A stretch of DNA of 64,000 nt. Source: Comamonadaceae bacterium. Lineage in GTDB: Bacteria; Pseudomonadota; Gammaproteobacteria; Burkholderiales; Burkholderiaceae_C. The notes under the pieces were generated by a model that was not told the DNA's origin, did no database searches, and saw only the letters and a program-made list of their open reading frames with translations. The stretch is from positions 62,001 through 126,000 of the forward strand of contig JAIYCG010000007.1 of assembly GCA_027488115.1 (NCBI GenBank). Reading direction: 5' to 3'. Numbering within the stretch: position 1 is the stretch's first letter; each line of letters opens with the position of its first letter. Below are positions 5,919 to 48,075 of the stretch, in pieces. Both the position numbers and the translations under genes were made by a program.

Positions 5919-5947
5919 AGTGTGTTCACTCCGCTCACATTGAGTTG

Positions 5948-7765: not shown

Positions 7766-7824
7766 GGCTTAAAATTGACTGAAGACACAAATTAAGTAGA
7801 TGTTAAGTTTGTCTTGATGATTAT

Positions 7825-7838
7825 TTGATGTAAATCAA
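7825..7838 (-). promoter_or_regulatory. Perfect FNR/Anr-type box upstream of dCache pseudokinase
   Basis: TTGAT-GTAA-ATCAA matches the FNR-family consensus TTGAT-N4-ATCAA at all ten fixed positions. Its centre is about 66 nt upstream of the pseudokinase ATG and no gene starts on the other side before the tRNA. This suggests oxygen-linked control of the pseudokinase-channel pair. I do not see a convincing -10 hexamer at the exact class II spacing, and the region is AT-rich, so confidence is moderate. Confidence 0.55.
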
Positions 7839-7921
7839 AAATTAGTTAATATAAATTGACATGCCAGAAGGCGGTGACCCGAAAAACTCAACCATTCGTT
7901 TCAATTCAATACGAAGACAAC

Positions 7922-7956
7922 AAAAAACCCGCTTCGTTAGAAAACGTGCGGGTTTT
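7922..7956 (-). terminator. Intrinsic terminator of tRNA-Arg
   Basis: Inverted repeat AAAACCCGC / GCGGGTTTT with a 15-nt loop. Read on the minus strand it ends in a run of six T. It lies 32 bp beyond the 3' end of the minus-strand tRNA gene and is the obvious terminator for it. Confidence 0.8.
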
Positions 7957-7988
7957 GATGCTTCATGACAATGTCTGAAACTGGTTCT

Positions 7989-8063
7989 TGGCGCCTCCGA
8001 CAGGAATCGAACCTGTATCTAGCGCTTAGGAGGCACTCGTTCTATCCATTGAACTACGGCGGC
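7989..8063 (-). tRNA. tRNA-Arg (anticodon CCT)
   Basis: The cloverleaf was folded by eye on the minus strand. D stem GTTC/GAAC, anticodon stem AGTGC/GCGCT with loop CTCCTAA (anticodon CCT at 8028-8030), T stem ACAGG/CCTGT with TTCGATT loop, discriminator G and an encoded CCA (7989-7991). The acceptor stem GCCGCCG/CGGAGGC has one G-A mismatch at pair 4-69. Six bases further out (8063-8069) there is a perfect complement, GCCTCCG, to the 3' acceptor strand. Reads AGG codons. Its 3' end faces the AT-rich region on the left. Confidence 0.92.
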
Positions 8064-33785: not shown

Positions 33786-34610
33786 TCAGCTGCTGCGTCC
33801 CACCAGGCTGTAAGCGCTTGTATTGTTTTGTAACCATTGCTCTGACAGTGCTGCGCTTTGTTGTGCAGGATGAAAGTCGGCTTTCTTGTAGGCCTTCCAA
33901 TGGCCAATGTTGCTTCTGAACAAACCATCTTTGCTGAGCAACAACCGGTAGCCGCTCTTCCATGTACTGAGCTTGAACAAGCTGCCATCGCGCCACAGGT
34001 TGTGCATGGTTTGCAACATGACATCGGTGATGAAGGTCACGGTCACATAGTGAAAAATGCGAATGCGCCATTCTTCATTGCCGCCCAGTGCTTTGTAGAC
34101 GTCAAAGGCGGTACAACGGTGCTCGGCTTCTTCAGCGGCATGCCATTGCCACATGGTTCTGAGGCGAGGTTCTGTGCCTTCAAAAATTTCTGGGTGGCTT
34201 AAGAGCCAGTCGGCAAAGATGTCTGTGAAGTGCTCGGTGGCTGCAGTGGCTGCCAATTGCTGACGCACGTTTTGATGCGCATTGGCCTTGATGCGCTTGG
34301 CTGAGCGCTCAGCTATTTTGTTTTGAAAACCTTGCAATTCAATGTGGCCATTGAACAAAGCATGAATGCGCCGGTGGGTGGCCTCTTGGCCAATGAAGCC
34401 TTGAACTTCGGCCGCAAATTTTTCGCGCATGGCAGGGTCCATTTGTTTGGCACCTTCACGCACGGAGTCAATGAAAAATTGCTCACCAACAGGAAAGCTC
34501 ATTGACAGAGCATTGAAGAAGGCGGACTTGAATGCGTCGCCACCACACCAGCGTTGGTCAAAAGGTGTTGTGAGGTCAACCAATAATTTTCTAACTGCAA
34601 GTTCAGACAT
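33786..34610 (-). CDS. Predicted metal-dependent hydrolase (PF10118 type)
   Basis: 274 residues. The pattern of metal ligands looks like a ferritin-like di-iron helix bundle: FIGQEATHRRIH, ATEHFTD, and HAAEEAEHRCTAFDVY. These match the PF10118 'metal-dependent hydrolase' family, whose substrates are unknown. It begins WCGGDAFKSAFFNALSMSFPVGE. No signal peptide. Divergent from the first sulfatase across 187 bp that holds an inverted repeat, so it is probably part of the organosulfate cluster. Confidence 0.8.
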   Translation of the reverse strand: MSELAVRKLLVDLTTPFDQRWCGGDAFKSAFFNALSMSFPVGEQFFIDSVREGAKQMDPAMREKFAAEVQGFIGQEATHRRIHALFNGHIELQGFQNKIAERSAKRIKANAHQNVRQQLAATAATEHFTDIFADWLLSHPEIFEGTEPRLRTMWQWHAAEEAEHRCTAFDVYKALGGNEEWRIRIFHYVTVTFITDVMLQTMHNLWRDGSLFKLSTWKSGYRLLLSKDGLFRSNIGHWKAYKKADFHPAQQSAALSEQWLQNNTSAYSLVGRSS

Positions 34611-34679
34611 GTGGCTCTTTCAGGGGGCACCGAGGGTTTTGGAGGGCTTTTCGGTAAGCGCTTATTTTGCTATATTTTC

Positions 34680-34695
34680 CATACATTGATGTATG
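34680..34695. promoter_or_regulatory. Candidate operator between PF10118 gene and sulfatase 1
   Basis: Inverted repeat CATACAT-TG-ATGTATG, 7-bp arms. Its core TACA-N4-TGTA is shared with the palindrome at 44881-44900 next to the tetR gene, hinting at one regulator for both promoters. Eight fixed bases would occur about once by chance in a window this size. Confidence 0.4.
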
Positions 34696-34797
34696 TATCT
34701 ATGACATCCCTGTATTTAAAGGGTTTTTCTCTGATTTAGAGCAATGTCGTGAAGACTTCACATTCATGACAATGAAACCCACCTTTTTGGGCTATGC

Positions 34798-36489
34798 ATG
34801 TTAAAGAAAATTGTCATTGCTTTTGGATTGCTCTTTGCAGCTTTGGTGCTGGTGGTGGGCGGGCTTTATGTCAAGGGCGGCCAAGCCGAGGTGCTTTTGT
34901 GGGTGGTCAAAATCTTTTTAAGAGTGGAGCACGAACCTAACAGGGAAGTGACCTGGGCCATTCCAACGGGTAAACCAGCAAGTCCTCAAGCCAATGCGGC
35001 CAGTGCGGGCATCAAACCACCCAATGTCATTTTGATTGTGGCCGACGACTTGGGCTACAACGACATCACTTTAAATGGCGGTGGCCTGGCAAAAGGCACT
35101 GTGCCCACGCCCCACATCAACAGTTTGGCGCAGCAAGGTGCCAACTTTGAAACCAGCTATTCTGGTAATGCAACCTGTGCACCCTCCCGAGCCGCCATGA
35201 TGACTGGCCGGTATCCCACTCGTTTTGGATTTGAGTTCACGCCAACGCCCAAGCAGTTCATGAAAGTCATTGGCCACTACAAAGGCCCTAACCAAGTCCA
35301 TGACGCCATCTATCACGCCGAGCGTGAAAAAGATCTCATTCCCTACGAAACCATGGGCCTGCCACGCTCAGAGATTACGCTGGCCAAGTTGCTCAAAGGG
35401 CAAGGCTATCGCACCCTGCACGTGGGCAAGTGGCATTTAGGAGACTCTCCTGAATTTAGAGCCTACGAGCATGGCTTTGATGAGTCTTTGTCCTTCCCCC
35501 ATGCCAGCTCGCTTTACTTGCCAGAGAAAGATCCCAATGTGGTGAACGCTCAGCAATCGTTTGACATCATTGACAGATTTCAATGGGCGGCTGGTAGCTA
35601 TGGCATGCGCTTTAACAAAAGCGAACTCTTTAAGCCTCAACGTTATGTGACCGACTACCTGACTGACGAAGCTGAAAAAGCCATGGAGGCCAATCGACAT
35701 CAGCCCTTCTTCTTGTATTTGGCCTACACCGCGCCCCACACGCCCTTGCAAGCCACCAAAGAAGACTATGACGCACTGTCTCACATTGAAGACCACACAT
35801 TGCGTGTGTATGCCGCCATGGTTAGAAACTTAGACCGCAACATTGGCCGGGTGCTGCAAACTTTGAAAGACAAGGGCCTAGAAGACAACACCATTGTGAT
35901 TTTTACCAGCGACAACGGTGGCGCTCATTATGTGGGGCTCGAGGGTTTGAATAAACCCTACCGGGGATGGAAGGCCACGTTTTTTGAAGGCGGTATTCGA
36001 GTTCCCATGTTCATGCGGTGGCCAGCCGGCATTCCAAAGGGCGTGAAGCCGCAACTGCCCGTCAATCACATGGATATTTTCACAACGGTTGCCGCTGCCA
36101 CAGGCGCCAAGATGCCCATCGACAGGCCAATGGATGGCATCAATTTGTTGCCCCAAATAGCCAAGCCCAACGACAAAGGACCTGAGCGTTCCTTGTTTTG
36201 GCGAACCGATACGTATCGGGTCATTCGAAAAGGCGATTGGAAATTGCAAGTCACGCAAAACCCCCGAAAAGACTGGCTCTATCACCTGGCAACAGACCCT
36301 ACTGAGAAAGTCAATTTGGCCACCCAAGAGCCCGCCAGAGTGGCCAGCATGAAGATGGAGTTGGAAGCGTTCAATGCGACGCAAGTCAAACCCAGTTGGC
36401 CTTCAATGGCCGAGGCGGCCATTGGCATTGATAAAAATCTTCGCCAAAAATCTTTGCCAACTGACGAGTACATCTACTACGGCAACTGA
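34798..36489 (+). CDS. Sulfatase 1, N-terminally membrane-anchored (Cys-type)
   Basis: 563 residues. One hydrophobic helix (about 5-26) anchors it with the catalytic domain outside. Metal ligands in NVILIVADDLGYND; the sulfatase signature is CAPSRAAMMTGRY with Cys127 to become formylglycine; then GKWHLGD, YLAYTAPHTPLQA and IFTSDNGGAHY. It hydrolyses sulfate esters in the periplasm. The Cys must be converted by a formylglycine-generating enzyme; one is encoded at 47020-48075. Convergent with the 7-gene operon. Substrate unknown. Confidence 0.92.
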   Translation: MLKKIVIAFGLLFAALVLVVGGLYVKGGQAEVLLWVVKIFLRVEHEPNREVTWAIPTGKPASPQANAASAGIKPPNVILIVADDLGYNDITLNGGGLAKGTVPTPHINSLAQQGANFETSYSGNATCAPSRAAMMTGRYPTRFGFEFTPTPKQFMKVIGHYKGPNQVHDAIYHAEREKDLIPYETMGLPRSEITLAKLLKGQGYRTLHVGKWHLGDSPEFRAYEHGFDESLSFPHASSLYLPEKDPNVVNAQQSFDIIDRFQWAAGSYGMRFNKSELFKPQRYVTDYLTDEAEKAMEANRHQPFFLYLAYTAPHTPLQATKEDYDALSHIEDHTLRVYAAMVRNLDRNIGRVLQTLKDKGLEDNTIVIFTSDNGGAHYVGLEGLNKPYRGWKATFFEGGIRVPMFMRWPAGIPKGVKPQLPVNHMDIFTTVAAATGAKMPIDRPMDGINLLPQIAKPNDKGPERSLFWRTDTYRVIRKGDWKLQVTQNPRKDWLYHLATDPTEKVNLATQEPARVASMKMELEAFNATQVKPSWPSMAEAAIGIDKNLRQKSLPTDEYIYYGN

Positions 36490-36501
36490 AGACAGCGTGG
36501 C

Positions 36502-37413
36502 TTAGTTGGCGCGAATAAATTCAACCAAAACTTGCGCCACTTCTTCCCCTTTGTCTTCTTGAACAAAGTGACCGGCACCGCGAATTTGGGTGTGGTTTTG
36601 ATGGGCCGCACCTGGCACTGATTTTTGCCACATGCGCTCGCCCCCTTTGGTCACAGGGTCGCGGGTGGCAAACAAAGTGATGAAGGGCTTGGTCCATGCT
36701 TTGTACATGTCCCACGCTCGCTCGTTGGCTTCGCGCGCAGGGTTGCTTGGGTGAATGGGCACCAGGGTTGGAAATACTCTGGCACCCACTGCGTACCGAG
36801 CATTGGGGTAGGGCGCATCATAGGCGGCCACGGCAGCATCGCTCAAGCCTTGTGCGCAACCCGCGCGCACAATTTTGCCAATGGGAAACCAGGGGCTGTA
36901 CATGGCAAAGGCGCGCCAGATGTGAAATGCCCTTGGAATCTTTTCTTTGCCAGTGGGCAAGCCACCATTGCTCAGCGCAATGCGTGCAAAACGCTCTGGC
37001 ATTTCGGCCACCATGCGAAGGCCAATGAGGGAGCCCCAGTCTTGGCAAAACAAGGTAATGTCTTTGACATCCACCGATTCAAGCCAAGCACTCATCCACT
37101 GCACATGATTTTCGTAGGTGTAGTCGGAGCGCCTCGTGGGCTTGTCTGTGCGGCCAAAACCCACTTGATCGGGTACCAACACGCGCATGCCCGCATTGAC
37201 CAAGACCGGAATCATTTTGCGATAAAGAAATGACCAAGCCGGCTCTCCGTGCATCAGCAGCACCACGGGGCCATCTTTGGGGCCTTCGTCAATGTAGGCA
37301 ATGCGCAAGCCCCCAATTTCGGTGTAGTGAGGTTGGTATGCAAAGTCGGGCAGGTTCTGAAATCTATCCTCAGGCGTGCGAAGGAAGTGTTGAATGTGGG
37401 GGTGCTGGCGCAT
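36502..37413 (-). CDS. Haloalkane-dehalogenase-type alpha/beta hydrolase
   Basis: 303 residues. The pattern follows the DhlA group: LMHGEPAWSFLYR (oxyanion region), nucleophile Asp125 in FCQDWGS with the halide-stabilising Trp126 next to it, acid Asp252 in FATRDPVT and His282 in GAGHFVQED. These enzymes replace a halogen by hydroxyl; related proteins act on other esters or epoxides. No signal peptide. Last gene of the operon that also carries sulfatase 2; convergent with sulfatase 1. Confidence 0.85.
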   Translation of the reverse strand: MRQHPHIQHFLRTPEDRFQNLPDFAYQPHYTEIGGLRIAYIDEGPKDGPVVLLMHGEPAWSFLYRKMIPVLVNAGMRVLVPDQVGFGRTDKPTRRSDYTYENHVQWMSAWLESVDVKDITLFCQDWGSLIGLRMVAEMPERFARIALSNGGLPTGKEKIPRAFHIWRAFAMYSPWFPIGKIVRAGCAQGLSDAAVAAYDAPYPNARYAVGARVFPTLVPIHPSNPAREANERAWDMYKAWTKPFITLFATRDPVTKGGERMWQKSVPGAAHQNHTQIRGAGHFVQEDKGEEVAQVLVEFIRAN

Positions 37414-37436
37414 TTTGGAGTCAATTTTGAAATGGA

Positions 37437-38510
37437 TTAAAAACGTGAACTGGACTGAATGCTTTTTTGACCTGCAGGCAGACTTAAAACATCACCATCC
37501 TTGGCCACTTGAATTTTTCCCTTGAAAGCCTTGTCGGTACCTTTCAAGAAAACATCGACCAAGCCCGGAAGGGGCAAGGGCGGTGCAATGTGGTGAAGCA
37601 TCAAATACCCAACCTCTGCTTTGCTTGCAATTTGCGCGGCTTCTACGGGCGAGGTGTGGTAGTTGGTAATGTCTTTCATCAGTTGTTCAAGCTTGTCGCG
37701 CTTGGCATCATGAGCGCCCTCCTGGAGCAGCTTCATCATCTCCATGGACATGGCTTCGTGCATCAGCACATCGACACCCTTGGCTTCCCGTTCTACATGC
37801 GCTGATGGCGTGGTGTCACCACTGATCACGATGCTTCTGTCTTTGTATTTGATTTTGTAACCCACTGCCGGATGAATGGGCGCATGCGATACGCTGAATG
37901 CATATATTTGGGTGTCTGGGCTTTCAAATACCAAGGTGGCTTTATCGTCTTGCAGTCCAAATGTTTGGGGCACAGCGCCAAAGCCACTTTGAGGCAAAAC
38001 AGCTTCGCCATGATGGGCCACACGATAGCCTCGGTCCAAGCTGTAGGCTTGCATCAAGCCACTGACCACTGTTGCCACACCTTCGGGTCCGTACACATTC
38101 ACGGCTTGGGTGTTGGAATTGGACACCCAGCGTTGAAGCAACAATTCGCCTAGGCCATCAATGTGATCAGAGTGAAAGTGCGTCAAAAAGATGCCCTGAA
38201 TGTTGCCGGCATTGAAGCCCATTTTGTTGATGTTGCGCGCACTGGTGTTGCCTGCGTCAAACACAAAAAGTTGTTGGCCAGCTATGACCAAAGTGCAGGG
38301 GCCACCGCGCTTGTCATCCGGCATGGGAGAGCCTGCGCCACACACGGCAATGTGCAGACCATCGGGAAGATCTTTAAGCGGGTTACTGCCCATGCGCTGA
38401 GCTGTCACACGCTTAGCCACCATCAAGCTGACGGGTTCCCGAAAGACATACAAGCTGCCAGCTAAGAGCACAAGCACCATCAGGGCTGAGCCCAGTTTTC
38501 CAATTCGCAT
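37437..38510 (-). CDS. MBL-fold metallohydrolase, membrane-anchored
   Basis: 357 residues from the ATG at 38510, two bases after the SDR stop. An N-terminal hydrophobic helix (about 8-24) is a signal anchor. The beta-lactamase-fold metal site is THFHSDHIDG (His111, His113, Asp115, His116), with SGDTTPSAHV and MLHHIAPP supplying later ligands. The overall layout resembles RNase Z-like and AtsA-type arylsulfatases of the MBL fold. In a sulfatase cluster, a sulfate ester or lactone substrate is plausible. Confidence 0.82.
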   Translation of the reverse strand: MRIGKLGSALMVLVLLAGSLYVFREPVSLMVAKRVTAQRMGSNPLKDLPDGLHIAVCGAGSPMPDDKRGGPCTLVIAGQQLFVFDAGNTSARNINKMGFNAGNIQGIFLTHFHSDHIDGLGELLLQRWVSNSNTQAVNVYGPEGVATVVSGLMQAYSLDRGYRVAHHGEAVLPQSGFGAVPQTFGLQDDKATLVFESPDTQIYAFSVSHAPIHPAVGYKIKYKDRSIVISGDTTPSAHVEREAKGVDVLMHEAMSMEMMKLLQEGAHDAKRDKLEQLMKDITNYHTSPVEAAQIASKAEVGYLMLHHIAPPLPLPGLVDVFLKGTDKAFKGKIQVAKDGDVLSLPAGQKSIQSSSRF

Positions 38511-38512
38511 GT

Positions 38513-39304
38513 TCAAACTCCAAAAATTCGGGCCAATCGAACACCAAAGCCTTGAATCCACGGAGAGACATATCTCAACTTAGGTCGTGAGGCTTCAGAC
38601 GCTTTGACAATTTGTTTCACAATGCCCTGGGTACTTCGCGCTTCCAAGAATTTGAACGTGGCACGTTCTTGTTTTTGCATTTTCTCGGCTTGGTGTGCAA
38701 AGTAGGATGAGCTTCCCATCCACTTGTATTTGCTGTCAGTCATGGCTTGGTTGAAGCCGGTGTGAATGGCGCCAGGCTCAATGAGCGAGATGTGAATGTT
38801 TTTTTGAAGCTGGTCCATTTCGGCGCGCAGGCCAGCCCCCGCAGCGGAGAGTGCAAATTTACTCATGCTGTAGGGCATCAGAAAGGGCATGGGGACTCTG
38901 CCCGCAATAGAGCTCACCATCAGCACCGTCCCTTTTTCGCGCCGTATCATGCCGCGCAAAGCAATTTGGGTGAGCTCAAGGGTGCCAAACAAATTGACTT
39001 CGAAAATTTGTCGAACGCGTTGCATGTCCACTTCGGCCAAGGAACCCGATTCGCCCATGCCAGCGTTGTTGATCAAAACATCGATGGCATAGGGCTCGAT
39101 GAGCTGTCTGTCGGCTTTCAAGGTGATGTCAAGCTTGAAAACTTCCAAAGCTGTCCCTTGCTTGTGAGCCGCCATGCTGAGCGCTTCCGCTTGGGCCAGC
39201 GTTTGGGTGGTGGCCAGCACACGGTGCCCTCTGGCAGCCAAGGCCAATGCAGCGTCCTTGCCGATGCCAGAACCCGCGCCAGTGATCAAAATGGTTTTTG
39301 ACAT
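38513..39304 (-). CDS. Short-chain dehydrogenase/reductase
   Basis: 263 residues, classical SDR. Cofactor motif TGAGSGIGKDAAL, NNAGMGESG, catalytic Ser in MVSSIAGRVPMP and YSMSK (Tyr/Lys). It probably oxidises a hydroxyl to a ketone with NAD(P). Lies 15 bp after the beta-propeller gene and 2 bp before the MBL gene. An alcohol freed by a sulfatase would be a natural substrate (inference). Confidence 0.88.
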   Translation of the reverse strand: MSKTILITGAGSGIGKDAALALAARGHRVLATTQTLAQAEALSMAAHKQGTALEVFKLDITLKADRQLIEPYAIDVLINNAGMGESGSLAEVDMQRVRQIFEVNLFGTLELTQIALRGMIRREKGTVLMVSSIAGRVPMPFLMPYSMSKFALSAAGAGLRAEMDQLQKNIHISLIEPGAIHTGFNQAMTDSKYKWMGSSSYFAHQAEKMQKQERATFKFLEARSTQGIVKQIVKASEASRPKLRYVSPWIQGFGVRLARIFGV

Positions 39305-39319
39305 GCAAAAGTCGATTCG

Positions 39320-40597
39320 TTAAACAGAAGACACATAAATGCGCGACAGACGGTCCATCGAGCACCAGTAAAAATCACGTTGCCAACCTGCGCTGGGAAA
39401 CACCACACCCTGCATGAGGCCGCCGGTTTTCACTCGCGCTTTTTCTTGGCCTGTTTCAATGTCCAACACAAGCACTTGCTCGTTGAAGCGGCTGTAGTCA
39501 TTGACGCACATTTCGCCTGTGTTGGCAAACAGCAGCAAGTGGCTGGCTGCACCAAGCTGTTCATGGTGCCAAAGCGGTTTCAATTCAACATCGTGTTCAT
39601 TGCCATTTGGACTTGCGTGAATTCTCCAAGCACGCAAATGTCGGTTTGCAGAGTCATAGCCCACCACAATGCGGCGTTTTAAGTCGATCAAGGGCGGGTT
39701 CGTCACGCTGCCATGGGGCAAGCCACTGACCTCCCAGCTTTGATGCGATTGCGCGTTGTGCAGTGACACTCGAAGGAGGCGATTAGGGGCTTTGTGAATG
39801 CCAGCACCCAACATGCTCATGAAGTAATTGTGCTTGCCATTGTCCATGAACCATCCGTGCTCGCCATCAAGCACCATGTCCCAGCCATAGCTTTGGGGTG
39901 AGTCTTGCAGGTAATGAAACTCCCAATGGGCATCGCGAATCAATTGTTGCGAAGCATCATGCCAGTGGTATCTGAACACGCGGCTGACGCCCACCACATA
40001 CACCGTGTTGCCATGGGCGCTCAAACGGGCAATCGAAGCCTCAGGGCAAAGCACATCGCTGCTGGCTGCTTTGAAGCTGTCTGGGTCAAGGGTGGTGAGT
40101 TGAGCAGGACATGTGTCAGACAGATTCTTGGTGACCAGCAAGCCGTTGTCCAGCACCACAAAACTGTTGTACGGCTCATTGAGGGGTAACTCATGCGAGG
40201 CCACCGGTTGGCATTGCCTGTTCAGTTTGTGGGCATAGCGGCCGTAGACCACCATGATGTGTCCGTTGGCATGGATCGCCATGCCGCCCGGCCACATGGG
40301 CCCACCTGCTAGCCAGGGCGAACATTCAAGCGTTTCAAGCGTCACAGGGTCGATGCGCGATACTTTTGCTTGGGTTGCCAATCCCAAGTAGGAACGAACT
40401 GCAGAATGTGTCAGAAGAAACACTTCGCCAGGCGCACCCAAGACGGTCATGGTCGACATTTGCGTGCGTTTGGAAGTACACGCCAGTTTCATGCCGACCT
40501 GCAAATCTAAGCAAGCCGTGTTGTGCGGTGTTTGAAGCCTTGCAGGCCCTGCGTCTTCGCAAGGCCAAGGGCTGTCAAAGTAAGCAGTTGATGGCAT
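39320..40597 (-). CDS. Probable beta-propeller protein of unknown function
   Basis: 425 residues. No family recognised. The sequence is built of repeated beta-strand blocks of about 45-55 residues with short turns (GGPMWPGGMAIHANGHIMVVYG, DNGLLVTKNL, GNTVYVVGVSRVFRYH, GYDSANRHLRAWRIH), as in six- or seven-bladed propellers of the SMP-30/PQQ kind. No signal peptide or Cys-rich site. Fourth gene of the operon with sulfatase 2. It could be a lactonase, a binding platform or an enzyme; no evidence separates these. Confidence 0.65.
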   Translation of the reverse strand: MPSTAYFDSPWPCEDAGPARLQTPHNTACLDLQVGMKLACTSKRTQMSTMTVLGAPGEVFLLTHSAVRSYLGLATQAKVSRIDPVTLETLECSPWLAGGPMWPGGMAIHANGHIMVVYGRYAHKLNRQCQPVASHELPLNEPYNSFVVLDNGLLVTKNLSDTCPAQLTTLDPDSFKAASSDVLCPEASIARLSAHGNTVYVVGVSRVFRYHWHDASQQLIRDAHWEFHYLQDSPQSYGWDMVLDGEHGWFMDNGKHNYFMSMLGAGIHKAPNRLLRVSLHNAQSHQSWEVSGLPHGSVTNPPLIDLKRRIVVGYDSANRHLRAWRIHASPNGNEHDVELKPLWHHEQLGAASHLLLFANTGEMCVNDYSRFNEQVLVLDIETGQEKARVKTGGLMQGVVFPSAGWQRDFYWCSMDRLSRIYVSSV

Positions 40598-40606
40598 GGG
40601 GCTGGC

Positions 40607-42418
40607 TCAAGCGGCAGCTTGAATAAGAGCGCGCTGTTTGCGCCGACGCCAAAGCCAAAAAGTGCCCAACAAAAGAAATCCTAGGATGCCGATCAGATGC
40701 ACCTTGTATCTAGGCCAGTAAACAAACACCAGTGAGTTGATGATGACTTGTTGAATGGGGTCGTAGCCAGATGGCATTTCAAGCACGCCATTGGTTTTGG
40801 CCCATTTGGCGTAGTCTTGTTGCATACTCAAAAACAGATCTGGCAATTCCTGCTGCAGGTCTTGAGTTTCACCAGGGTCTTTGACGATGTTGAACAAATG
40901 CCATTGGCCATCGCCAACCGGTGCCATGTTGCTCAGCAATTTGTAGTCGCCTTTGAACAGAGCGCGGTTGCCAGACAACTCGTAACCCAGTATTTCATCG
41001 GGCCCCCGAACTCTTGTTGCATCGCCAGTGATGACGGGCATGAGGCTGTGTCCGCTTAAGGGGTAGATGGTCTGCCCTTTGTAGAGCGTGCCAGGATGTT
41101 GGACTCTGGCCAAGTCAAGCAAGGTCGGCACAATGTCATTCACGTGCGTGAGGCTGCCATGCACCTTGTTGATGGCAGTCTTTGGCAGATTGGGGATGCC
41201 CGAAATAATCAAGGGCACCCGGATGCCGCCTTCACCCGCAAAAAACTTGTAGGTACTCAAAGGCGCTGTGGCAGCACTTGCCCAGTTGGGGCCAATGATG
41301 CTGAAGGTGCCTTGGCTACCGAGTCGATCGAGTTCGCGATTGTAATTTTGATCCAACCACCATTTGCCGACGGCCACCGCATAAGGGTCTGAAGCTTCTG
41401 CACCGTTGTCAGACAGGAACATAAAGACAGTTTGATCAAATTCACCCGTTTCTTTCAAGTGGGTGATGAGGCGGCCAATGTGAAAGTCCATGGCCTCTGC
41501 CATGGCGGCATAAACTTCCATGCGCCGTGCTTGATAGGCTTTGTCTGATGCACTCAAAGAATTCCAAGCGACATGCGTTGAGGGCAAGTTGGCCATTTTG
41601 GAATGGGCGGGGACCAGCCCCAGCGCAATGGCTTTGTCGCGACGTTCATTGCGCAAGACATCCCAGCCAGCGTCATAGCGGCCTTTGTATTTGTCGATGA
41701 ACGATTGGGGCGCTTGAACAGGGATGTGGTTGGCCTGAAACGCAATATAAGCAAAAAAAGGCTTGTCTGATTTGGCATCCGCTCGAAGGTACTCAAGCGT
41801 TTTGCTGATGTAAAACTCTGAGGAGTAAAACGTCTTGGGCATCTTGGCTTCTTGGCCGTTGTCATACCAATACACTTTGTCGGTCAGGTCCATGTACAAC
41901 TTGCCTGTTTCCCAGTTGTCTGAACCGCTGTCGCCCATGACCAAGGACCGATCAAAGCCCCTGGCAGGCGGTAGGTTGTGAGCTTCTTTGCCCACATGCC
42001 ATTTGCCAGCCGCATAGGTTCTGTAGCCACTGTCTTGAAGCAAGCTTGAGACGGTCACCACTCGCTGATTAAGGACGCTCAAGTACCCAGCGCGACCCAC
42101 GTGCGATTGAGGGATGGTTTCCCGCATATTGCCCACGCCATTGAGGTGATTGTCGACACCCGTGAGGAGCATGGACCTTGTGGGTGAGCAAGATGCGCTC
42201 ACATGAAAATTTGAAAAACGTGTTCCAGATTGTGCCAACAGGTTGAGGTTGGGAGTTTGAATTTCACTGCCAAATGCACCCACGTCACTGAAGCCCCAAT
42301 CGTCTGCCAACATCACCACAATGTTGGGTCGTTTGGCCCAAACAGGTGAGCAAACCAAAAGTGCCGCACAGATGCAAATGGCTAGCCAGGTTTTCAGGGG
42401 ACTGCTTGAAATGGTCAT
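40607..42418 (-). CDS. Sulfatase 2 with C-terminal membrane anchor (Cys-type)
   Basis: 603 residues. Signal peptide (1-28), then NIVVMLADDWGFSDVGAFG metal site, signature SCSPTRSMLLTG with Cys77, GKWHVGKE, YIAFQANHIPVQAP and FLSDNGAEA. A C-terminal helix (about 570-590) followed by WRRRKQRAL leaves the enzyme anchored on the outer face of the inner membrane. It hydrolyses sulfate esters after formylglycine formation. The anchor is at the opposite end from that of sulfatase 1. Start lies 3 bp after the upstream stop. Confidence 0.92.
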   Translation of the reverse strand: MTISSSPLKTWLAICICAALLVCSPVWAKRPNIVVMLADDWGFSDVGAFGSEIQTPNLNLLAQSGTRFSNFHVSASCSPTRSMLLTGVDNHLNGVGNMRETIPQSHVGRAGYLSVLNQRVVTVSSLLQDSGYRTYAAGKWHVGKEAHNLPPARGFDRSLVMGDSGSDNWETGKLYMDLTDKVYWYDNGQEAKMPKTFYSSEFYISKTLEYLRADAKSDKPFFAYIAFQANHIPVQAPQSFIDKYKGRYDAGWDVLRNERRDKAIALGLVPAHSKMANLPSTHVAWNSLSASDKAYQARRMEVYAAMAEAMDFHIGRLITHLKETGEFDQTVFMFLSDNGAEASDPYAVAVGKWWLDQNYNRELDRLGSQGTFSIIGPNWASAATAPLSTYKFFAGEGGIRVPLIISGIPNLPKTAINKVHGSLTHVNDIVPTLLDLARVQHPGTLYKGQTIYPLSGHSLMPVITGDATRVRGPDEILGYELSGNRALFKGDYKLLSNMAPVGDGQWHLFNIVKDPGETQDLQQELPDLFLSMQQDYAKWAKTNGVLEMPSGYDPIQQVIINSLVFVYWPRYKVHLIGILGFLLLGTFWLWRRRKQRALIQAAA

Positions 42419-42421
42419 GAT

Positions 42422-43645
42422 TCAGGGTGTGGGGGGAAGATCGAACCGATCGTGCATGGCTTTTTCAATGACCCAGAATCGGTCTTGACCCCAGACGGCG
42501 GTGTCTTCAAATTTGAAGGAGGGAACTCCCCATAGACCTAGCGCAAAAAGTGCTTGTCGGTTTTGTTCTGCAACTGCGCGCCAATGCTGTTCATTGGTTT
42601 GGCTCTTCAAAATGTCTTTGGCAGCTTGCCAATTCAGCCCACACCGTTCTACGATGATCTTCAGATGGGCATCGGTACCCGCGTCCAAGCCCTCAGACCA
42701 AACGCCTTTCATGAAGGACATGACATAGGCCTCGGCCAGTTCGTGCATTTGAGCAAAAGGAATCAGGGCAAGCCCCCGCTCTGTGGGCTTGCCGACGGGG
42801 TCATTGAGTCTGCCAAAAGGCACGTTTTGAACAAATGCTTCACGCGCTGCATCAAGGCTGATGTATTTTCTTTTTTCGGCGGGTACGGGCAAGCCGCGCA
42901 TCACCATGGGCAGCACATAGCGCAAGTTAATTTGCACGCCATGGTCTTTGGCCCAAGGCAACAATTTGGCGCAACTGATGGCAGAGTAAGGGCTTCTGAA
43001 TGAGAAGAAAAAATCAATGCCAGTCCCCTCCGGCACAAAGTCCAGTGCTTGATATTGAGGGGTGAAAAAAAGTGGAGGGCGCGGGCCTTCTTGGGTTCCA
43101 TGAAATTGCGTTCCATGAGCTTTCTTTGAAAGACCCAATTCATGAAGACGGGCTTCTAAATGGTGCAGTCGGTCAATGCCCCAATACCATTCACCTTCAT
43201 AGTAAATCACACCACTCAAATAGTGGCCCCATTTTTTGCGCAAGCGGTGTGAAGAGGTGAGTGAAGCCTGGCTATTGTTCACAGACGCCTCTGCACGCTT
43301 GGTGAGTCTTGTCGGTTGAAGTTTGTATTGATGAGCCAAGCGAGCTGCATCGAGTTGGCTATAAGCCTTCAGTTTGTCACGCTCGGGGACTGCAGAATCT
43401 TCTGGCGGCCCCACCAAGTGTTGTAAAACTGAAACTGCGTATCTGCTTTGCAAAAGGGGTATGGCTTGAGCCAACAATTGCGAGTAAGGATCTTCCAACT
43501 CATGAAAGAAATGCAAGACGTGCGGACGTTGCTGTGCGTTGCGTTTAAGTTCAGCCTTTTGTCGCAGCGCAAGAAGGCGCTTGCGAGATAAAAAAAGTTG
43601 GCTGATGACAGGCATCAGCCAACTTTTGAGACTTCTGAAGGCCAT
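42422..43645 (-). CDS. Tandem DsbA/kappa-fold protein
   Basis: 407 residues with two thioredoxin-like DsbA domains. The first (about 42-190) starts HVLHFFHELEDPYSQLLAQA and the second (about 205-400) starts IDFFFSFRSPYSAISCAKLL and ends GVPSFKFEDTAVWGQDRFWVIE. Neither has a CxxC pair; the SPYS serine is that of 2-hydroxychromene-2-carboxylate isomerases and kappa glutathione transferases. No signal peptide. A perfect intrinsic terminator lies inside codons 7-18, so either the start is wrong or expression is attenuated. Confidence 0.75.
   Translation of the reverse strand: MAFRSLKSWLMPVISQLFLSRKRLLALRQKAELKRNAQQRPHVLHFFHELEDPYSQLLAQAIPLLQSRYAVSVLQHLVGPPEDSAVPERDKLKAYSQLDAARLAHQYKLQPTRLTKRAEASVNNSQASLTSSHRLRKKWGHYLSGVIYYEGEWYWGIDRLHHLEARLHELGLSKKAHGTQFHGTQEGPRPPLFFTPQYQALDFVPEGTGIDFFFSFRSPYSAISCAKLLPWAKDHGVQINLRYVLPMVMRGLPVPAEKRKYISLDAAREAFVQNVPFGRLNDPVGKPTERGLALIPFAQMHELAEAYVMSFMKGVWSEGLDAGTDAHLKIIVERCGLNWQAAKDILKSQTNEQHWRAVAEQNRQALFALGLWGVPSFKFEDTAVWGQDRFWVIEKAMHDRFDLPPTP
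43591..43627 (-). terminator. Strong intrinsic terminator within the start of the DsbA-like gene
   Basis: Perfect 15-bp arms (AAAAGTTGGCTGATG and its complement) with a five-base loop, followed on the minus strand by a T run. It lies 71 nt past the outer-membrane gene stop and overlaps the first codons of the next gene. Confidence 0.85.
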
Positions 43646-43697
43646 AGAAGTGAGGTTTGAAATTAAACCGCAACGACCTTAGGCATTCGAGCGCAAA

Positions 43698-44852
43698 TTA
43701 CCAAGCTTTGACCAAACGCAGTTGCAATGACTTGGCCACGATGGCGTTGCGGCCACCGAAGTTGTCGCTGAACTGCAAATTGAAGCCAGCATCCTTGCCA
43801 GGCAACTTGTATGAAACAAAGGGTCCGACACCATTGGTTTTGTATCGGTTGCCGCCAGCTGGTGCACCAACACCGGTGTCATCAGAAATTTGTTGGGTTG
43901 TGAACACATTGACACCATACGCCCAATCACCACTGACTTTCACAACGCCGCCTTCGGCATAAATAAAGTTACCGCTTTTGTAGTCGGTGTCTTTGTTGCG
44001 CGTGTTGAAGCCATAAGACACGCGACCGGCAATGGTCACGCCTGCATCCCAAGATGCGTCTGAGTGTTTGGGGTTGAGGTTGTAAGTAGCAGCAACACCT
44101 GGGCGCACAGTGTAGAAGTTGCCAAAGCCCGGGTTGGGTCCGCGATTCTTGTCAAACGAGCCTGTAGGTACAAACAAGGAAACGCCTGCGGCAACTTTCA
44201 GACGATCTTCATGACGCACCCACACAGTGGACAACTCGGCATCACCTAAGCCAGAAGTCTCAATGCTTTGGGCTTTGTTGGTGGCTCCGACACGCGCTTG
44301 AACTTGCGAATTGGCAGCGGCTGTGCCGGCAGTGAGCTGTCCAACAATGGCTGCGCTCAAGGGGGGTGTGGTTGCGGCTGGTGTCAGGGTGCCGGCGGGT
44401 TGAGTGACCACGTAATCGCGCTTTTGTTGAATGAAGGGCACGTTGATGGCAAATGCAATATGACCGTTGCCATAAGTGCTTTCTGTCAAGTAGCCGCCCA
44501 CCAAATTAATTTGGGTTTGGTCTTGGTTGAATGCCAAGCTGCCTTTTGGAAATGACACCGAGTAGGGCAAGGCGGGGTTGAGTTGAATGGGCGCAATAGG
44601 CGGTGGTGTCACATCGTTGCCGGATGCATCTGCAATTTTGTAGATCTGCAATTGGGTGAGGCTGGCAGTGCCAAAAAAGCCTGGTTTGTCTGCAGATGCT
44701 GCGATCTCGCCGCCAAAGGCGCCGATCGGTGCTTGGCGGAATTTGTAACTTTCGGCAGCTTGTACGTTCAAACTGCATGCCAATAAAGAAACCCAAGGTA
44801 AGGTAGCAAGTACGAACTGGCGAGCTGTTACTTTGTGCAGGGGATGAGTCAT
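43698..44852 (-). CDS. Outer-membrane beta-barrel protein (PF13557/SphA-like)
   Basis: 384 residues from the ATG at 44852, which has GGAG six bases upstream. Signal peptide (to about 32, after VQA), then alternating strands ending in the aromatic C-terminus LRLVKAW, typical for barrel insertion. The family is the phenol-degradation MetA/SphA type, thought to pass hydrophobic compounds through the outer membrane. A Thr/Ala-rich extracellular loop is seen (about 165-190). First gene after the promoter facing tetR, so it is probably the regulated import step. Confidence 0.82.
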   Translation of the reverse strand: MTHPLHKVTARQFVLATLPWVSLLACSLNVQAAESYKFRQAPIGAFGGEIAASADKPGFFGTASLTQLQIYKIADASGNDVTPPPIAPIQLNPALPYSVSFPKGSLAFNQDQTQINLVGGYLTESTYGNGHIAFAINVPFIQQKRDYVVTQPAGTLTPAATTPPLSAAIVGQLTAGTAAANSQVQARVGATNKAQSIETSGLGDAELSTVWVRHEDRLKVAAGVSLFVPTGSFDKNRGPNPGFGNFYTVRPGVAATYNLNPKHSDASWDAGVTIAGRVSYGFNTRNKDTDYKSGNFIYAEGGVVKVSGDWAYGVNVFTTQQISDDTGVGAPAGGNRYKTNGVGPFVSYKLPGKDAGFNLQFSDNFGGRNAIVAKSLQLRLVKAW

Positions 44853-44880
44853 GGGTGTCTCCATTAAATATGATTTGGAT

Positions 44881-44900
44881 TCAGTACACATGTGTATTGA
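44881..44900. promoter_or_regulatory. Candidate TetR operator, 20-bp palindrome
   Basis: TCAGTACACATGTGTATTGA is palindromic except for one base pair, with a perfect 12-bp core. It lies between the barrel gene and the tetR gene, 28 bp upstream of the barrel start. On the plus strand a TTGACA (44897-44902) overlaps it. Binding of the TetR protein would block both promoters. Confidence 0.7.
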
Positions 44901-44996
44901 CATTTCACTCTAGCACAGCAAAGATGAATACCAGTCTAGGGTTTTCGCTAGCGAGGGCTTTTTAATCGACGGATCTGGTGTGTTGCAAAATAGGAC

Positions 44997-45626
44997 ATGA
45001 CGCTTATGGACCCACAACCTCAAAATCAAAAAAACAAAACAATGAGTTCAGATGGCGCACGTTTGACGCGTGACCATTGGCTCGACGAAGCCTTTCAAGC
45101 GGTTGTGGTTGGGGGTTTTGAAAATGTCAAGGTCATGGCGCTGGCTGAAAAACTCAATGTCACGCGGGGCAGTTTTTATTGGCACTTCACTGACCATGCC
45201 GACTTGATTGGCAGTTTGTTGATGAGATGGAAATTAGCGCAACTTGAACTCGATGAAAAGTTGAAATCTCATCACAGTGGCAATCCCATCCAAGATCTTG
45301 AATTTGTGGTGGACGCCGCCTTTAACCAAGCTGGCTCAGAGCTTGAAAATCTTCGTTTCGAGCAAGCTTTGCGGGCCTTGAGTCATCTTCACAAAGAGGC
45401 GGCTCAGATGTTGGTCGAAGTTGATGCTGAACGCATGAACTTATTTGAAGCCAAATTTTTTGTCATTTTGAATGACCCCAAAAAGGCGCGTGATTTAGCA
45501 GCGCTTCTTTATTTGGCCATTGTGGGAGGCTACCAGGCGCTCAGTCGACCTGTGAACCCGCCCAATATCAGAGCTTATGTACAAGGTTTGATTTCAAACT
45601 ATTTGGTCTTGAAGCAGGTCACTTGA
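44997..45626 (+). CDS. TetR-family transcriptional regulator
   Basis: 209 residues. The HTH is at about 35-65 (GFENVKVMALAEKLNVTRGSFYWHFTDHADLI), the usual TetR DNA-binding region. The C-terminal two thirds form an all-helical ligand/dimer domain with no recognised effector motif. Divergent from the outer-membrane barrel gene, with a 20-bp palindrome between; it probably represses that operon until an inducer appears. An internal ATG at 45039 region could be used instead. Confidence 0.9.
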   Translation: MTLMDPQPQNQKNKTMSSDGARLTRDHWLDEAFQAVVVGGFENVKVMALAEKLNVTRGSFYWHFTDHADLIGSLLMRWKLAQLELDEKLKSHHSGNPIQDLEFVVDAAFNQAGSELENLRFEQALRALSHLHKEAAQMLVEVDAERMNLFEAKFFVILNDPKKARDLAALLYLAIVGGYQALSRPVNPPNIRAYVQGLISNYLVLKQVT

Positions 45627-45631
45627 GCGTT

Positions 45632-47023
45632 TTAGTCTAGTCTCTCTAGGGCGGGCATTTTCCATTGCCCATTCAGTGCCTTGTCCTCTGGCCAATACAA
45701 ACGCGCATTGAGTAAAAACGGCGCGCCCACCTGAACGGGCAGCCAATTGGCTGAGGCTTCTTTCTGAGCAGGGGGGGTGGCTTGCACCCAAAGGTCCAGA
45801 GAGCCATCTGCATTGAAGACCAATGGATCTCGATCACCGATGGCAAATCTTTGGATTGAATTGTCAATTAAAAATTCATCTGCCCCGTAAGCCGTGATGG
45901 ACCAAAAAGCTTTCACGGGTGGCAGCGCGTTGGCCGCAAAATGCAACCGGTATCGGTGCTGGCCATTCAGGGGTTTGCCTTGATGGTCTAGCGCAGTGTT
46001 GGGGTAGAGCGCATCTTCTGGCAAGTTGGCGCCAAGTCCCACCATGGCCACCGCAGCGCGCGTGTTGTAGTCGGTGCCATAACGGCCTAAGTTCAAGGGC
46101 GGGGTAGACCAACTTCCATCTTGAGGTTTGGTGTTCAAGGCCTTCATGACGCGTTGGTTGGCAATCCATCGGCCGATGCTGAAACTCATGTGATGCAGCC
46201 AGTTGATGTTCACTGCTTGCCCAGGCCTCATTTCAACTTGGGCCAATCTTGCAAGCAATGGGGCATCTTCTGCCGCCGGTGGGTTGTTCACCATCAGTTG
46301 CATGAGCCGATTGAAAAAATCAGGGGTGCTCATGGCTTTCATTTGTGCGACTGGCGGCAGGGAAGGCTCTGAACTGGCTTGCCAAAGGGGTGCAACTGGT
46401 GCAACTGGCTTTTGAGAGTTCGGGTTTGACAAAGGCAAGCTAGAGGGTGAGTCCCACTTTGAAAGGCGAAGGCGGTTTTGCAATTTATGCACAGTTGCTA
46501 AATCGGCTGCGCCGTTGGTTTGCGTTCTGCCAATGAGCCAAACCAGGTCGGTAGGCGATCTTAAAAGTGTCATGCCCTCGGGCACCTTGCCGCGCCATTC
46601 GGGTCCCGCTAGCAAGTAGGTCGCACCTTGATTGCCCGAGGTTCTGCTGCCAGGAGATGCAAACACATGGGTCCATGCATCCATGAAAGGCATCAGCTCA
46701 TAGCGCGTTTGATTGGCAGGCATTTCAAACACCCAGGGCCCCTGTTTCATGCTGATAAAGGCCGTGGTGTAAAGCGTATCGACATTGGGTCGAACCACAT
46801 CTTTAAATTGGGCGTTTGGAAATTGCCTAACCAAGCGCAATTGATTTTCGGGCCCGATGTATTTCGCGCTGTGCGCACGCGTCGTCTCCATCATGACCAA
46901 AGGGTAGCCATACAAATAAGCTTCAGCGCCAAGGGCAATCTTGTCTTTGATGAGAAGCAACAAGGCAGCCAACAAGGCCACGAAGACCAAAGCCGACAAC
47001 AGGATGCGTTTTGCAAGGCTCAT
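45632..47023 (-). CDS. DUF1254/DUF1214 protein, membrane-anchored
   Basis: 463 residues. One N-terminal helix (about 7-27), then a DUF1254 domain (AYLYGYPLVMMETTRA, RPNVDTLYTTAF) and a C-terminal DUF1214 domain (FWSITAYGADEFLIDNSIQRFAI, SLDLWVQATPP). The pair of domains is common in environmental bacteria but no activity is established. The start overlaps the stop of the formylglycine enzyme gene by 4 nt, so the two are co-translated. It may act on the same sulfated compounds (inference). Confidence 0.85.
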   Translation of the reverse strand: MSLAKRILLSALVFVALLAALLLLIKDKIALGAEAYLYGYPLVMMETTRAHSAKYIGPENQLRLVRQFPNAQFKDVVRPNVDTLYTTAFISMKQGPWVFEMPANQTRYELMPFMDAWTHVFASPGSRTSGNQGATYLLAGPEWRGKVPEGMTLLRSPTDLVWLIGRTQTNGAADLATVHKLQNRLRLSKWDSPSSLPLSNPNSQKPVAPVAPLWQASSEPSLPPVAQMKAMSTPDFFNRLMQLMVNNPPAAEDAPLLARLAQVEMRPGQAVNINWLHHMSFSIGRWIANQRVMKALNTKPQDGSWSTPPLNLGRYGTDYNTRAAVAMVGLGANLPEDALYPNTALDHQGKPLNGQHRYRLHFAANALPPVKAFWSITAYGADEFLIDNSIQRFAIGDRDPLVFNADGSLDLWVQATPPAQKEASANWLPVQVGAPFLLNARLYWPEDKALNGQWKMPALERLD

Positions 47024-48075
47024 GGCTGATAGATGGTTCGAAAGCCCAAATGGCTGACGGCCAAATCTTCTTCTTGCGCTTGCCTAGAACCTGCGCGGTA
47101 GCGCATGCAGTAATTGGGTGCACACAAAAATGAGCCGCCTTTGATCACGCGCGACTGAGGGCTAGAGTTGGCTTGAAGCGTTTTAAAAATAGGAGGTCTT
47201 TGCGCTTCGTCAGGGTCGAGTCCTTGGTTGGCGCTACCGCCCTTGCTGCTGATTGTGGATCTGTCGGCCACAAACACATCCGCCGTGAGTTCCCACACAT
47301 TGCCAATCATGTCAAACAGGCCATAGGCGTTGGGCGCATAGCAAGCCACGGGGGCTAAGCCTGCAAAGCCGTCTTCGCTGGCGTTGGCCATTGGGAAAAC
47401 ACCTTGCCATGTGTTGGCACTGGCAGGTTGGTCGTGCTGGCCCGGTAATTCCTTGGCGCCGGCGCGTGCTGCCCACTCCCACTGTGCTTCGGTTGGCAAA
47501 CGATGGCCCTTCCATTTGGCGTAGGCTTGAGCATCTTCGAAAGTGATGTGCACCACTGGAAATTGGCCGTAGTTGTCCACGCTGGAGCCCGGCCCTGCGG
47601 GGTGCTGCCAACTTGCGCCTGGAACGTATTGCCACCACTGCCGCGGGTCATCGCCGTAGGTCAGCTTGGCGGGTACCTTGAACACCACAGCACCAGGTTG
47701 GCGCATGGCTTCTGGCAAGCTGGCAATCAGTTGAGGGTTGACCGGTCGCTCTGCCACAGTCACGTAGCCCGTGGCTTTGACAAAGGCTGCAAATTCTGAA
47801 TTGGTGACCTCCGTGCGGTCCATCCAAAAACCTTTGACGCGCACATTGCGAACTGGTTTTTCTTCGGCATAAACGCTGTCGCCCATGTCGAACACACCCT
47901 CAGGAATCCAAACCATGCCAGGCCGAGGGGCAGCAGAAGAGGAGGCTGGCAGCTCGCATTGCAATTTGGCGGGCAGCACTTGCTTGGCGGAGGTCTTGTC
48001 CTGTGTCAACCAAAGAGTTGCTGCGGTTGCTAGCAAAATCAATGTGCTAAAGATGGACCATCGGAAAAATTTCAT
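47020..48075 (-). CDS. Formylglycine-generating enzyme with N-terminal export signal
   Basis: 351 residues. A signal anchor or signal peptide (about 5-23), then the FGE/SUMF1 domain (PGMVWIPEGVFDMGDSVYAEEKP, TEVTNSEFAAFVKATGY, LPTEAQWEWAARAG). The two active-site cysteines are in GGSFLCAPNYCMRYR (Cys318 and Cys323, spaced as in human FGE), followed by SHLGFR. It oxidises sulfatase Cys to formylglycine using copper and oxygen. Most bacterial FGEs act in the cytosol on unfolded sulfatase; here the signal suggests a periplasmic reaction. First gene of a pair with DUF1254. Confidence 0.9.
   Translation of the reverse strand: MKFFRWSIFSTLILLATAATLWLTQDKTSAKQVLPAKLQCELPASSSAAPRPGMVWIPEGVFDMGDSVYAEEKPVRNVRVKGFWMDRTEVTNSEFAAFVKATGYVTVAERPVNPQLIASLPEAMRQPGAVVFKVPAKLTYGDDPRQWWQYVPGASWQHPAGPGSSVDNYGQFPVVHITFEDAQAYAKWKGHRLPTEAQWEWAARAGAKELPGQHDQPASANTWQGVFPMANASEDGFAGLAPVACYAPNAYGLFDMIGNVWELTADVFVADRSTISSKGGSANQGLDPDEAQRPPIFKTLQANSSPQSRVIKGGSFLCAPNYCMRYRAGSRQAQEEDLAVSHLGFRTIYQP

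Follow-up and report, generated by a model that had tools for sequence, protein, structure and literature searches.

A conserved sulfatase and haloalkane dehalogenase locus of Comamonadaceae, probably a TetR-controlled module for the catabolism of long-chain sulfate esters

What would a bacterium do with two sulfatases, a sulfatase-maturing type of enzyme and a haloalkane dehalogenase encoded side by side? The question is raised by a 64,000-nucleotide stretch of a Comamonadaceae bacterium (the window hereafter: positions 62,001 to 126,000 of contig JAIYCG010000007.1, assembly GCA_027488115.1; G000:C7:62001-126000 in our numbering), part of a 2.95-Mb draft genome. A first-pass annotation, made from the letters of the window, had marked positions 33786..48075 as a candidate organosulfate and organohalide catabolic cluster. 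Our analysis supports a coherent locus that looks catabolic for organosulfates and encodes periplasm-facing sulfatases and a haloalkane dehalogenase-type hydrolase. The locus is real, conserved and apparently co-regulated, and we put at roughly 60% the probability that it serves, under TetR control, the catabolism of long-chain aliphatic sulfate esters and includes a dehalogenation step. Sulfated long-chain aliphatics are the likely substrates, and halogenated ones are plausible.

The twelve genes named by the first-pass annotation are all present where it had placed them, and eleven have a Pfam family above the curated cut-off, the exception being a 425-residue protein called propeller protein below, after the beta-propeller fold that the first-pass annotation thought probable. 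The features are as follows.

33786..34610, minus strand: PF10118 protein, "predicted metal-dependent hydrolase" (PF10118, 244 bits)
34682..34693, no strand: operator-like palindrome TACATTGATGTA, between the divergent PF10118 and sulfatase A genes and at the same place in relatives
34798..36489, plus strand: sulfatase A, with a predicted N-terminal membrane anchor and the motif CAPSR (PF00884, 209 bits)
36502..37413, minus strand: haloalkane dehalogenase (HLD), subfamily I, without signal or anchor (NF002043)
37437..38513, minus strand: metallo-beta-lactamase-fold (MBL) hydrolase with a predicted N-terminal anchor (PF12706/PF00753; start codon at about 38510)
38513..39304, minus strand: short-chain dehydrogenase/reductase (SDR) (PF00106, 139 bits)
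39320..40597, minus strand: 425-residue propeller protein, without Pfam or NCBIfam family
40607..42418, minus strand: sulfatase B, with predicted signal peptide, motif CSPTR and predicted C-terminal membrane anchor (PF00884, 196 bits)
42422..43645, minus strand: tandem thioredoxin-fold (DsbA-fold) protein (PF01323)
43698..44903, minus strand: outer-membrane barrel (OMP) (PF13557, 92 bits)
44885..44896, no strand: operator-like palindrome TACACATGTGTA, between the OMP operon and the TetR gene
44997..45626, plus strand: TetR-family regulator, divergent from the operon (PF00440, TetR_N)
45632..47023, minus strand: DUF1254/DUF1214 protein with a predicted N-terminal membrane anchor (Pfam DUF1254 and DUF1214)
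47020..48075, minus strand: formylglycine-generating enzyme (FGE), with both active-site cysteines GGSFLCAPNYCMRYR, probably exported (PF03781, 238 bits)

The tight spacing described for the main operon is borne out by gaps of 3 to 23 bases (sulfatase B/DsbA-fold 3, propeller/sulfatase B 9, SDR/propeller 15, HLD/MBL 23) and by overlaps, of 4 bases between the DUF1254 and FGE genes and, from the gene coordinates, also between the MBL and SDR genes. GC content is steady at 50-55% through the locus. Sugar-acid genes (altronate dehydratase type, TctC receptor, enolase type) flank it on the left and a FAD oxidoreductase (DAO) and ftsY on the right; all of these lie outside the locus.

Does the grouping hold beyond this genome? 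A search for the same set, proposed by the first-pass annotation, found it in the genus and also in other genera, and the scattering among relatives that would speak against a cluster is not seen: the genes stay together, partly reordered. The propeller gene occurs in 24 of 60 sampled genomes of the genus, sulfatase B at an identity of at least 56% in the same 24 (next full-length match, 38%) and the HLD at an identity of at least 63% in 22 of them (next best, 39%), while the other 36 genomes have none of the three at these thresholds. In the two carriers missing the HLD, the contig that bears the sulfatase is 4.6 kb (G299) and 3.9 kb (G306) long. These counts concern linked genes and hence are not independent events.

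In close relatives the same genes adjoin, in several of them with the same altronate and ftsY genes on either side. A second tier of relatives, mostly at 45-70% identity (about 30% for the barrel), differs in gene order and is largely alike in content. In three genomes from other genera of the family (L151, L153 and L155) the block reads SulfC (a third sulfatase of relatives)-FGE-DUF1254, then TetR, then OMP-DsbA-fold-sulfatase B-propeller-SDR-MBL-HLD, with flanking genes that, judged by eye, differ from those of the window. The set recurs, partly reordered, outside the genus.

A scan of 84,980 species returned 211 loci with a relative of the propeller gene, of which the best 80 were analysed. 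A de-duplicated set comprised 94 candidate loci, or 93 once L130 was removed as a duplicate; these are loci rather than genomes, as at least three genomes contributed two contigs each. Neighbouring genes were counted by tblastn with identity thresholds that exclude weak paralogues. Among the 30 loci of at least 17 kb, sulfatase B is found in 28, the DsbA-fold protein in 27, TetR in 25, MBL in 24, sulfatase A (SulfC counted in) in 21, SDR and HLD in 19 each, FGE in 16, OMP in 15, PF10118 in 14 and DUF1254 in 9. Rank correlations of pairwise protein distances (45-91 pairs, repeated contigs included) were 0.44-0.90 among eight cluster genes and 0.28-0.75 with FtsY, and were given no weight.

What would tie the separate operons of the locus to one another? 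Apparently they are under one regulator, a reading suggested by the palindrome TACA-N4-TGTA, which was first spotted by eye in the intergenic stretches and tested afterwards; an ungapped 14-mer comparison of the intergenic stretches had found no shared operator. The window holds exactly two such sites against 0.19 expected, and one of 100 shuffles also reached two. The OMP gene probably starts at 44852, to judge from a signal-peptide-like sequence (the shorter form scores 91.5 bits with PF13557), which would place TACACATGTGTA upstream of it. Among 2,816 palindromes (256 half-sites by 11 spacers) sought in 60 TetR upstream regions, TACA-N4-TGTA is the most frequent, with 45 exact occurrences; the runners-up, at 23 and 19, are nested in it, and the next reaches 11. 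When one mismatch is allowed, 51 of the 60 regions have it, against a mean of 1.5 and a maximum of 6 of 60 for random windows of the same loci (200 draws).

A total of 1.38 Mb contains 94 sites, of which 89 precede one of the genes considered: TetR (45/60), OMP (23/30), PF10118 (18/30), sulfatase A (9/24), sulfatase B (12/73), the DsbA-fold protein (11/60), HLD (6/47), an acyl-CoA ligase discussed below (5/5) and SulfC (1/19). None precedes the flanking genes (altronate 0/10, TctC 0/7, FtsY 0/9, DAO 0/8; 0/34 in total) or the genes that are usually internal to operons (propeller 0/88, SDR 0/57, MBL 0/61). A wider consensus, searched with one mismatch allowed in 16 whole genomes, had 17 exact places in 13 of the 14 carriers and none in the two genomes lacking the locus. 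Sixteen of these places were seen to belong to the locus itself, to its ligase block or to a PF10118 gene located on a different contig; the remaining one (G291:C19:3984), located by coordinate only, is about 2 kb away. TACACATGTGTA is the sole exact match of this wider consensus in the window's genome, and the carrier without an exact site, Limnohabitans G3-2 (G273), has no orthologue of this TetR in the stretch read. The TetR protein is presumably the binder of TACA-N4-TGTA.

One-mismatch palindromes elsewhere in the genomes were not counted as evidence, being about as many as those of a control pattern. Near-palindromes such as CAATACAGTNNTGTCTTG recur between flagellar-type genes, judged by eye, in L188-L192 and L198, from several members of the genus; a recurring one lies at a flagellar-type promoter, and they are probably another regulator's site.

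Which chemistry would such a regulon serve? Both sulfatases are of type I (formylglycine, S1), with PF00884 above its cut-off and a C-x-P-x-R motif accompanied by the metal Asp/Asn. The Cys, Pro and Arg of the motif are kept in 21 of 21 rows for sulfatase A and in 74 of 75 for sulfatase B, the remaining row being gapped (residue counts here and below are alignment rows, including the query and three repeated contigs, L150, L152 and L157). Transmembrane-like segments start at residue 5 in sulfatase A and at residues 10 and 572 in sulfatase B, and the prediction that both enzymes are membrane-tethered and face the periplasm is supported. The nearest solved structures are S1 carrageenan sulfatases (6prm) for sulfatase A and the arylsulfatase 1hdh, which we take to be a Pseudomonas enzyme, for sulfatase B (422 bits). 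Family and motif are the same as in these relatives; the locus enzymes differ in their predicted membrane tether and in their tie to an apparent lipid regulon. The window's genome has five sulfatases, two of them in the locus, and lacks SulfC there.

SulfC, about 49% identical to sulfatase A and encoded beside FGE in relatives (L150:639-2162 and 20 further rows), has CTVSR or CTISR in place of CxPxR in 19 of 21 rows, repeats included, the other two being unmatched.

The exported FGE of the first-pass annotation stands as an FGE, with PF03781, C318 and C323 in 30 of 30 rows, and a near full-length match to the nearest solved FGE, 6s07 (196 bits). Compared with 6s07 and the human-type 1y1e, with which it has both cysteines in common, it appears to add an N-terminal membrane segment. 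Its export had been read from this hydrophobic stretch, which a crude hydropathy scan (cut-off 1.6) left unflagged; on the strength of the stretch we regard the enzyme as probably exported. Over 88 loci, the three repeated contigs included, FGE is the only maturase in 31, a radical-SAM sulfatase maturase the only one in seven, both occur in none and neither in 50. One of the seven radical-SAM proteins was tested (TIGR03942, 487 bits against a cut-off of 349) and the other six were assigned by similarity.

The gene described at first as a dehalogenase-type hydrolase encodes a hydrolase indeed, and can be refined to a haloalkane dehalogenase: it scores 442.3 bits with NF002043 (cut-off 265) and resembles subfamily I enzymes (6f9o, 4mj3 and 5esr, presumably DpcA, DmrA and DccA), its nearest solved relatives, in sequence, length and catalytic pentad. 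The pentad, in which an Asp is the nucleophile, a further Asp and a His are catalytic and two Trp hold the halide, is intact (D125, W126, W166, D252, H282) in 46 of 46 rows. Its presence leads us to expect a halogen in the substrate. Subfamily I is associated mainly with man-made haloalkanes, and we know of no solved HLD relative that sits with sulfatases. One locus, L112, has two distinct HLD matches, at 50% and 68% identity to that of the window. Haloalkane dehalogenases act on aliphatic carbon-halogen bonds, and a halogenated phenol as substrate was for this reason ranked low.

The remaining proteins are less easily assigned. The MBL hydrolase has HxHxDH in 56 of 56 rows; its nearest solved structure (8gyg, 97 bits) is deposited as an arylsulfatase, and its best NCBIfam match is RNase Z at 179 bits, under the cut-off of 363. 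The SDR keeps the Tyr and Lys of YxxxK in 52 of 52 rows. For the propeller protein, a profile search of solved structures gave no credible relative (E-values of 0.67 and 0.85 only); sulfatase B is the closest recognised gene upstream of it in 84 of 90 loci, and we regard the family as a candidate new enzyme. The tandem DsbA-fold protein keeps its fold assignment (PF01323) and not the DsbA oxidoreductase type: CxxC is found in none of 58 rows, which sets the protein apart from ordinary DsbA oxidoreductases. For the C-terminal half the match is to 2-hydroxychromene-2-carboxylate isomerase (41 bits), while the first half, without a family match, is read as a second copy on the basis of the first-pass annotation and an ELEDPYS stretch. 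The PF10118 protein has, among other invariant positions in 26 rows, E76, H79, H83, E126, H127, H157, E160, E161, E163 and H164. The invariant Glu and His suggest a bound metal. Despite the name "metal-dependent hydrolase", the pattern, with ExxH twice, looks like that of a ferritin-like di-metal protein, which makes a role as an oxygenase conceivable. The hydropathy scan found hydrophobic segments in sulfatases A and B, MBL and DUF1254, and none in HLD, SDR, propeller, DsbA-fold and PF10118 proteins. In L100, L117, L121, L124 and L131, the DUF1254 and DUF1214 parts, which the window joins in a single protein, are split into two small genes (families tested on one member each).

The substrate is indicated by what else follows the palindrome in relatives. 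In G733, G917 and G780 it precedes a long-chain-fatty-acid-CoA ligase (825 bits with NF005463 in G733) that heads a same-strand series of PF10118, a small uncharacterised protein (DUF205) and SulfC, extended in G733 and G917 by FGE. In G780 the same palindrome is also the point from which a fadB-like gene, fadA (NF005494, 760 bits, cut-off 615) and a gene resembling acyl-CoA dehydrogenases run in the opposite direction. From the ligase and beta-oxidation genes at this site we infer a route from sulfated long-chain aliphatics to beta-oxidation. Among the substrate leads of the first-pass annotation these genes favour a long-chain aliphatic sulfate; steroids and halogenated phenols fit less well. 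Recurring neighbours in the best 80 loci, defined as similarity clusters with one member of each scanned, include glutathione S-transferase (GST)-like proteins (17), flavin monooxygenase (FMO)-like flavoproteins (14), acyl-CoA dehydrogenases (11) and acyl-CoA ligases (9).

The computed gene set, residues, co-occurrence and common palindrome, with the ligase (several relatives) and the fad genes (one relative) at that palindrome, can be joined into a pathway whose substrate class, order of steps and alcohol entry route we infer. Mechanistically, the barrel would pass an amphiphile across the outer membrane, and the two sulfatases, tethered to the inner membrane, would take off sulfate in the periplasm. 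They would be matured by the neighbouring FGE, or in some relatives perhaps by the radical-SAM maturase; a membrane segment on FGE would mean maturation after export. The alcohol would then enter the cell and be oxidised by the SDR, the HLD would swap halogen for hydroxyl, and a long-chain acyl-CoA ligase would activate the chain for beta-oxidation. TetR bound to TACA-N4-TGTA would repress the module until an intermediate frees the operator.

How new would this be? The first-pass annotation knew of no described pathway with this combination, and we found none in the open-access PMC literature, nor any organosulfate module there that joins periplasmic formylglycine sulfatases with an adjacent maturase, an HLD, beta-oxidation and one apparent regulator. 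Among systems that we found, the nearest described would be the SLF module (slfRCHSL) of the Psychrobacter plasmid pP62BP1, which serves the degradation of sodium dodecyl sulfate (PMC10779009). As described there, it resembles the locus and its relatives in bringing together a sulfatase, alcohol oxidation, a fatty-acid-CoA synthetase and a local regulator, and it is induced by an intermediate, lauryl aldehyde; it differs in its alkyl sulfatase, its AraC/XylS-type regulator and its aldehyde oxidoreductase, and no dehalogenase is named in it (PMC10779009). The locus has formylglycine sulfatases with an adjacent maturase, TetR, HLD, a partner without Pfam family, the barrel, DUF1254 and PF10118 instead. 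Unlike in an SLF-type module, Pfam and NCBIfam scans of the cluster found no alkyl-sulfatase family. The SLF alkyl sulfatase is of the SdsA type. A fatty-acid-CoA synthetase is absent from the window's locus and stands behind the same palindrome in some relatives.

Several points weigh against the proposed module. The window's locus has neither acyl-CoA ligase nor fad gene, and a ligase at least 55% identical to the palindrome-linked one is found in only 5 of 93 loci. The G733 ligase score is just under the cut-off (869), the fadB-like gene of G780 reaches 482 bits against 870 and the acyl-CoA dehydrogenase-like gene at best 98, far under its cut-off. The HLD is found in 48 of 93 loci and, as it occurs in 19 of the 30 loci of at least 17 kb, truncation cannot account for every absence. 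The exact palindrome is missing from 15 of 60 TetR regions, and some members lack an orthologue of this TetR. The mutual exclusion of FGE and radical-SAM maturase is weak by itself, arising by chance about 5% of the time (arithmetic), and the genome encodes three more FGE-family proteins elsewhere, four in all. No alcohol or sulfate transporter was recognised. Finally, propeller, HLD (327 bits in G482, cut-off 265), MBL and GST-like genes also cluster in distantly related members of the same class whose genomes measure 0.8-1.2 Mb (L140, which is G482; L174, L175, L178 and L187), and no sulfatase match lies in the 20 kb around the G482 propeller copy (L140). Desulfation may thus be an add-on, with the dehalogenating genes perhaps older than the desulfating ones. 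In the order of G482, the propeller gene occurs in 16 of 121 genomes; of 15 loci read, five have HLD, MBL and GST-like genes beside it, a sixth, whose contig breaks off too soon, has further neighbours in common with these, and the other nine have different surroundings.

Within the proposed module, a more specific substrate can be named tentatively: the locus may possibly degrade chlorosulfolipids, polychlorinated long-chain alkyl sulfates of freshwater golden algae that are also reported from the sea. The two sulfatases would serve two sulfate positions, as in the disulfate form of these lipids, the HLD their C-Cl bonds and beta-oxidation their chain. We found no paper on their bacterial breakdown in the open-access PMC literature, and to our knowledge no bacterial pathway has been described earlier. 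If this assignment is right, the locus would be the first known one, and freshwater bacteria would be consumers of lipids of the flagellates that graze on them; the fate of an algal lipid class described in the 1960s would become testable, as apparently cultured carriers exist, and HLD subfamily I would gain a natural substrate. Chlorosulfolipids were originally described from Ochromonas danica, a freshwater golden alga, and then also from Poterioochromonas malhamensis; more recently they have been detected in coastal sea water as well, in correlation with diatoms and dinoflagellates (PMC13413282). In O. danica, danicalipin A is said to be the chief constituent of the cell membrane (PMC11767188). 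Against this link stand the loci, about half, in which the HLD was not found, and the occurrence of the lipids outside fresh water.

Is a halogen needed at all? The same module could act on plain long-chain alkyl sulfates or alkanediol disulfates, with the HLD-like enzyme cleaving another bond. For alkyl sulfates, a sulfatase, alcohol oxidation and an acyl-CoA synthetase are enough, as in the SLF module, and 45 of 93 loci, some of them truncated, gave no HLD match. We consider this alternative unlikely, given a clear family match, a pentad complete in every row, both Trp included, and an HLD that accompanies the set in 22 of the 24 carrier genomes of the genus.

Sulfated steroids, sterols or terpenoids, with the SDR, a flavin monooxygenase of some relatives and CoA genes opening the rings, would account for the recurring SDR and thiolase genes and for an FMO-like flavoprotein gene found in 14 of 80 loci at a median of 39 bases from the propeller gene (PF00743, one member). 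However, the ligase is of the long-chain FadD type, with 825 bits against 234-246 for steroid-24-oyl-CoA synthetase (234 in G733), the hydrolase scores just 46 bits as HsaD, a steroid hydrolase, against 442 as an HLD, and no steroid ring-opening enzyme was found among the recurring neighbour families scanned, which cover part of the neighbours. Such a substrate is improbable.

Still less probable is a loose neighbourhood of independent hydrolases held by linkage. Some genes do stand on separate operons and their order varies between genera, but the set is all-or-none in genus genomes, and the palindrome is common to the separate operons and absent from the flanking genes checked. Desulfation of algal polysaccharides, to which the carrageenan sulfatases nearest sulfatase A might point, is the least credible alternative, as no glycoside hydrolase or lyase occurs among the recurring neighbour families scanned, the barrel is of the PF13557 type and an acyl-CoA ligase stands behind the same palindrome in relatives.

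Where is the locus found? By title, 78 of the best 80 loci are betaproteobacterial (Burkholderiales, Comamonadaceae, Limnohabitans, Rhodoferax and others); of the other two, one is titled Singulisphaera and one only proteobacterium. Nearly all are metagenome bins, some with names pointing to fresh water (Baikal, LacPavin, PowLak, pond, Limnohabitans) and many others with sample codes that we take to be lakes, ponds and reservoirs. The freshwater link is suggestive only, as freshwater bins may be over-represented and the best 80 of 211 loci were covered. Two carriers of most of the set, Limnohabitans sp. G3-2 (L116) and Comamonadaceae bacterium G21597-S1 (L094), have record titles that read as cultured isolates. 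The gene set is rare overall, the propeller gene being found in 11 of 399 genomes sampled from the family, 1 of 250 from the order, 2 of 369 from the class and 1 of 378 from the phylum, the window's own genome counted each time (single-protein search for the order, profiles for the other samples). For the partner of sulfatase B that has no Pfam family, the locus provides a context.

Carriage on plasmids was considered and rejected, as the propeller protein had no match among 72,556 plasmid records; the DsbA-fold protein matched 45 of them, none over more than 80% of its length, and the 20 matches listed span 45-51%. Elsewhere in the window, positions 1-8000 have a GC content of 41-44%, against 49-55% in the remainder, and hold six open reading frames of 164-605 residues; this is possibly an acquired stretch.

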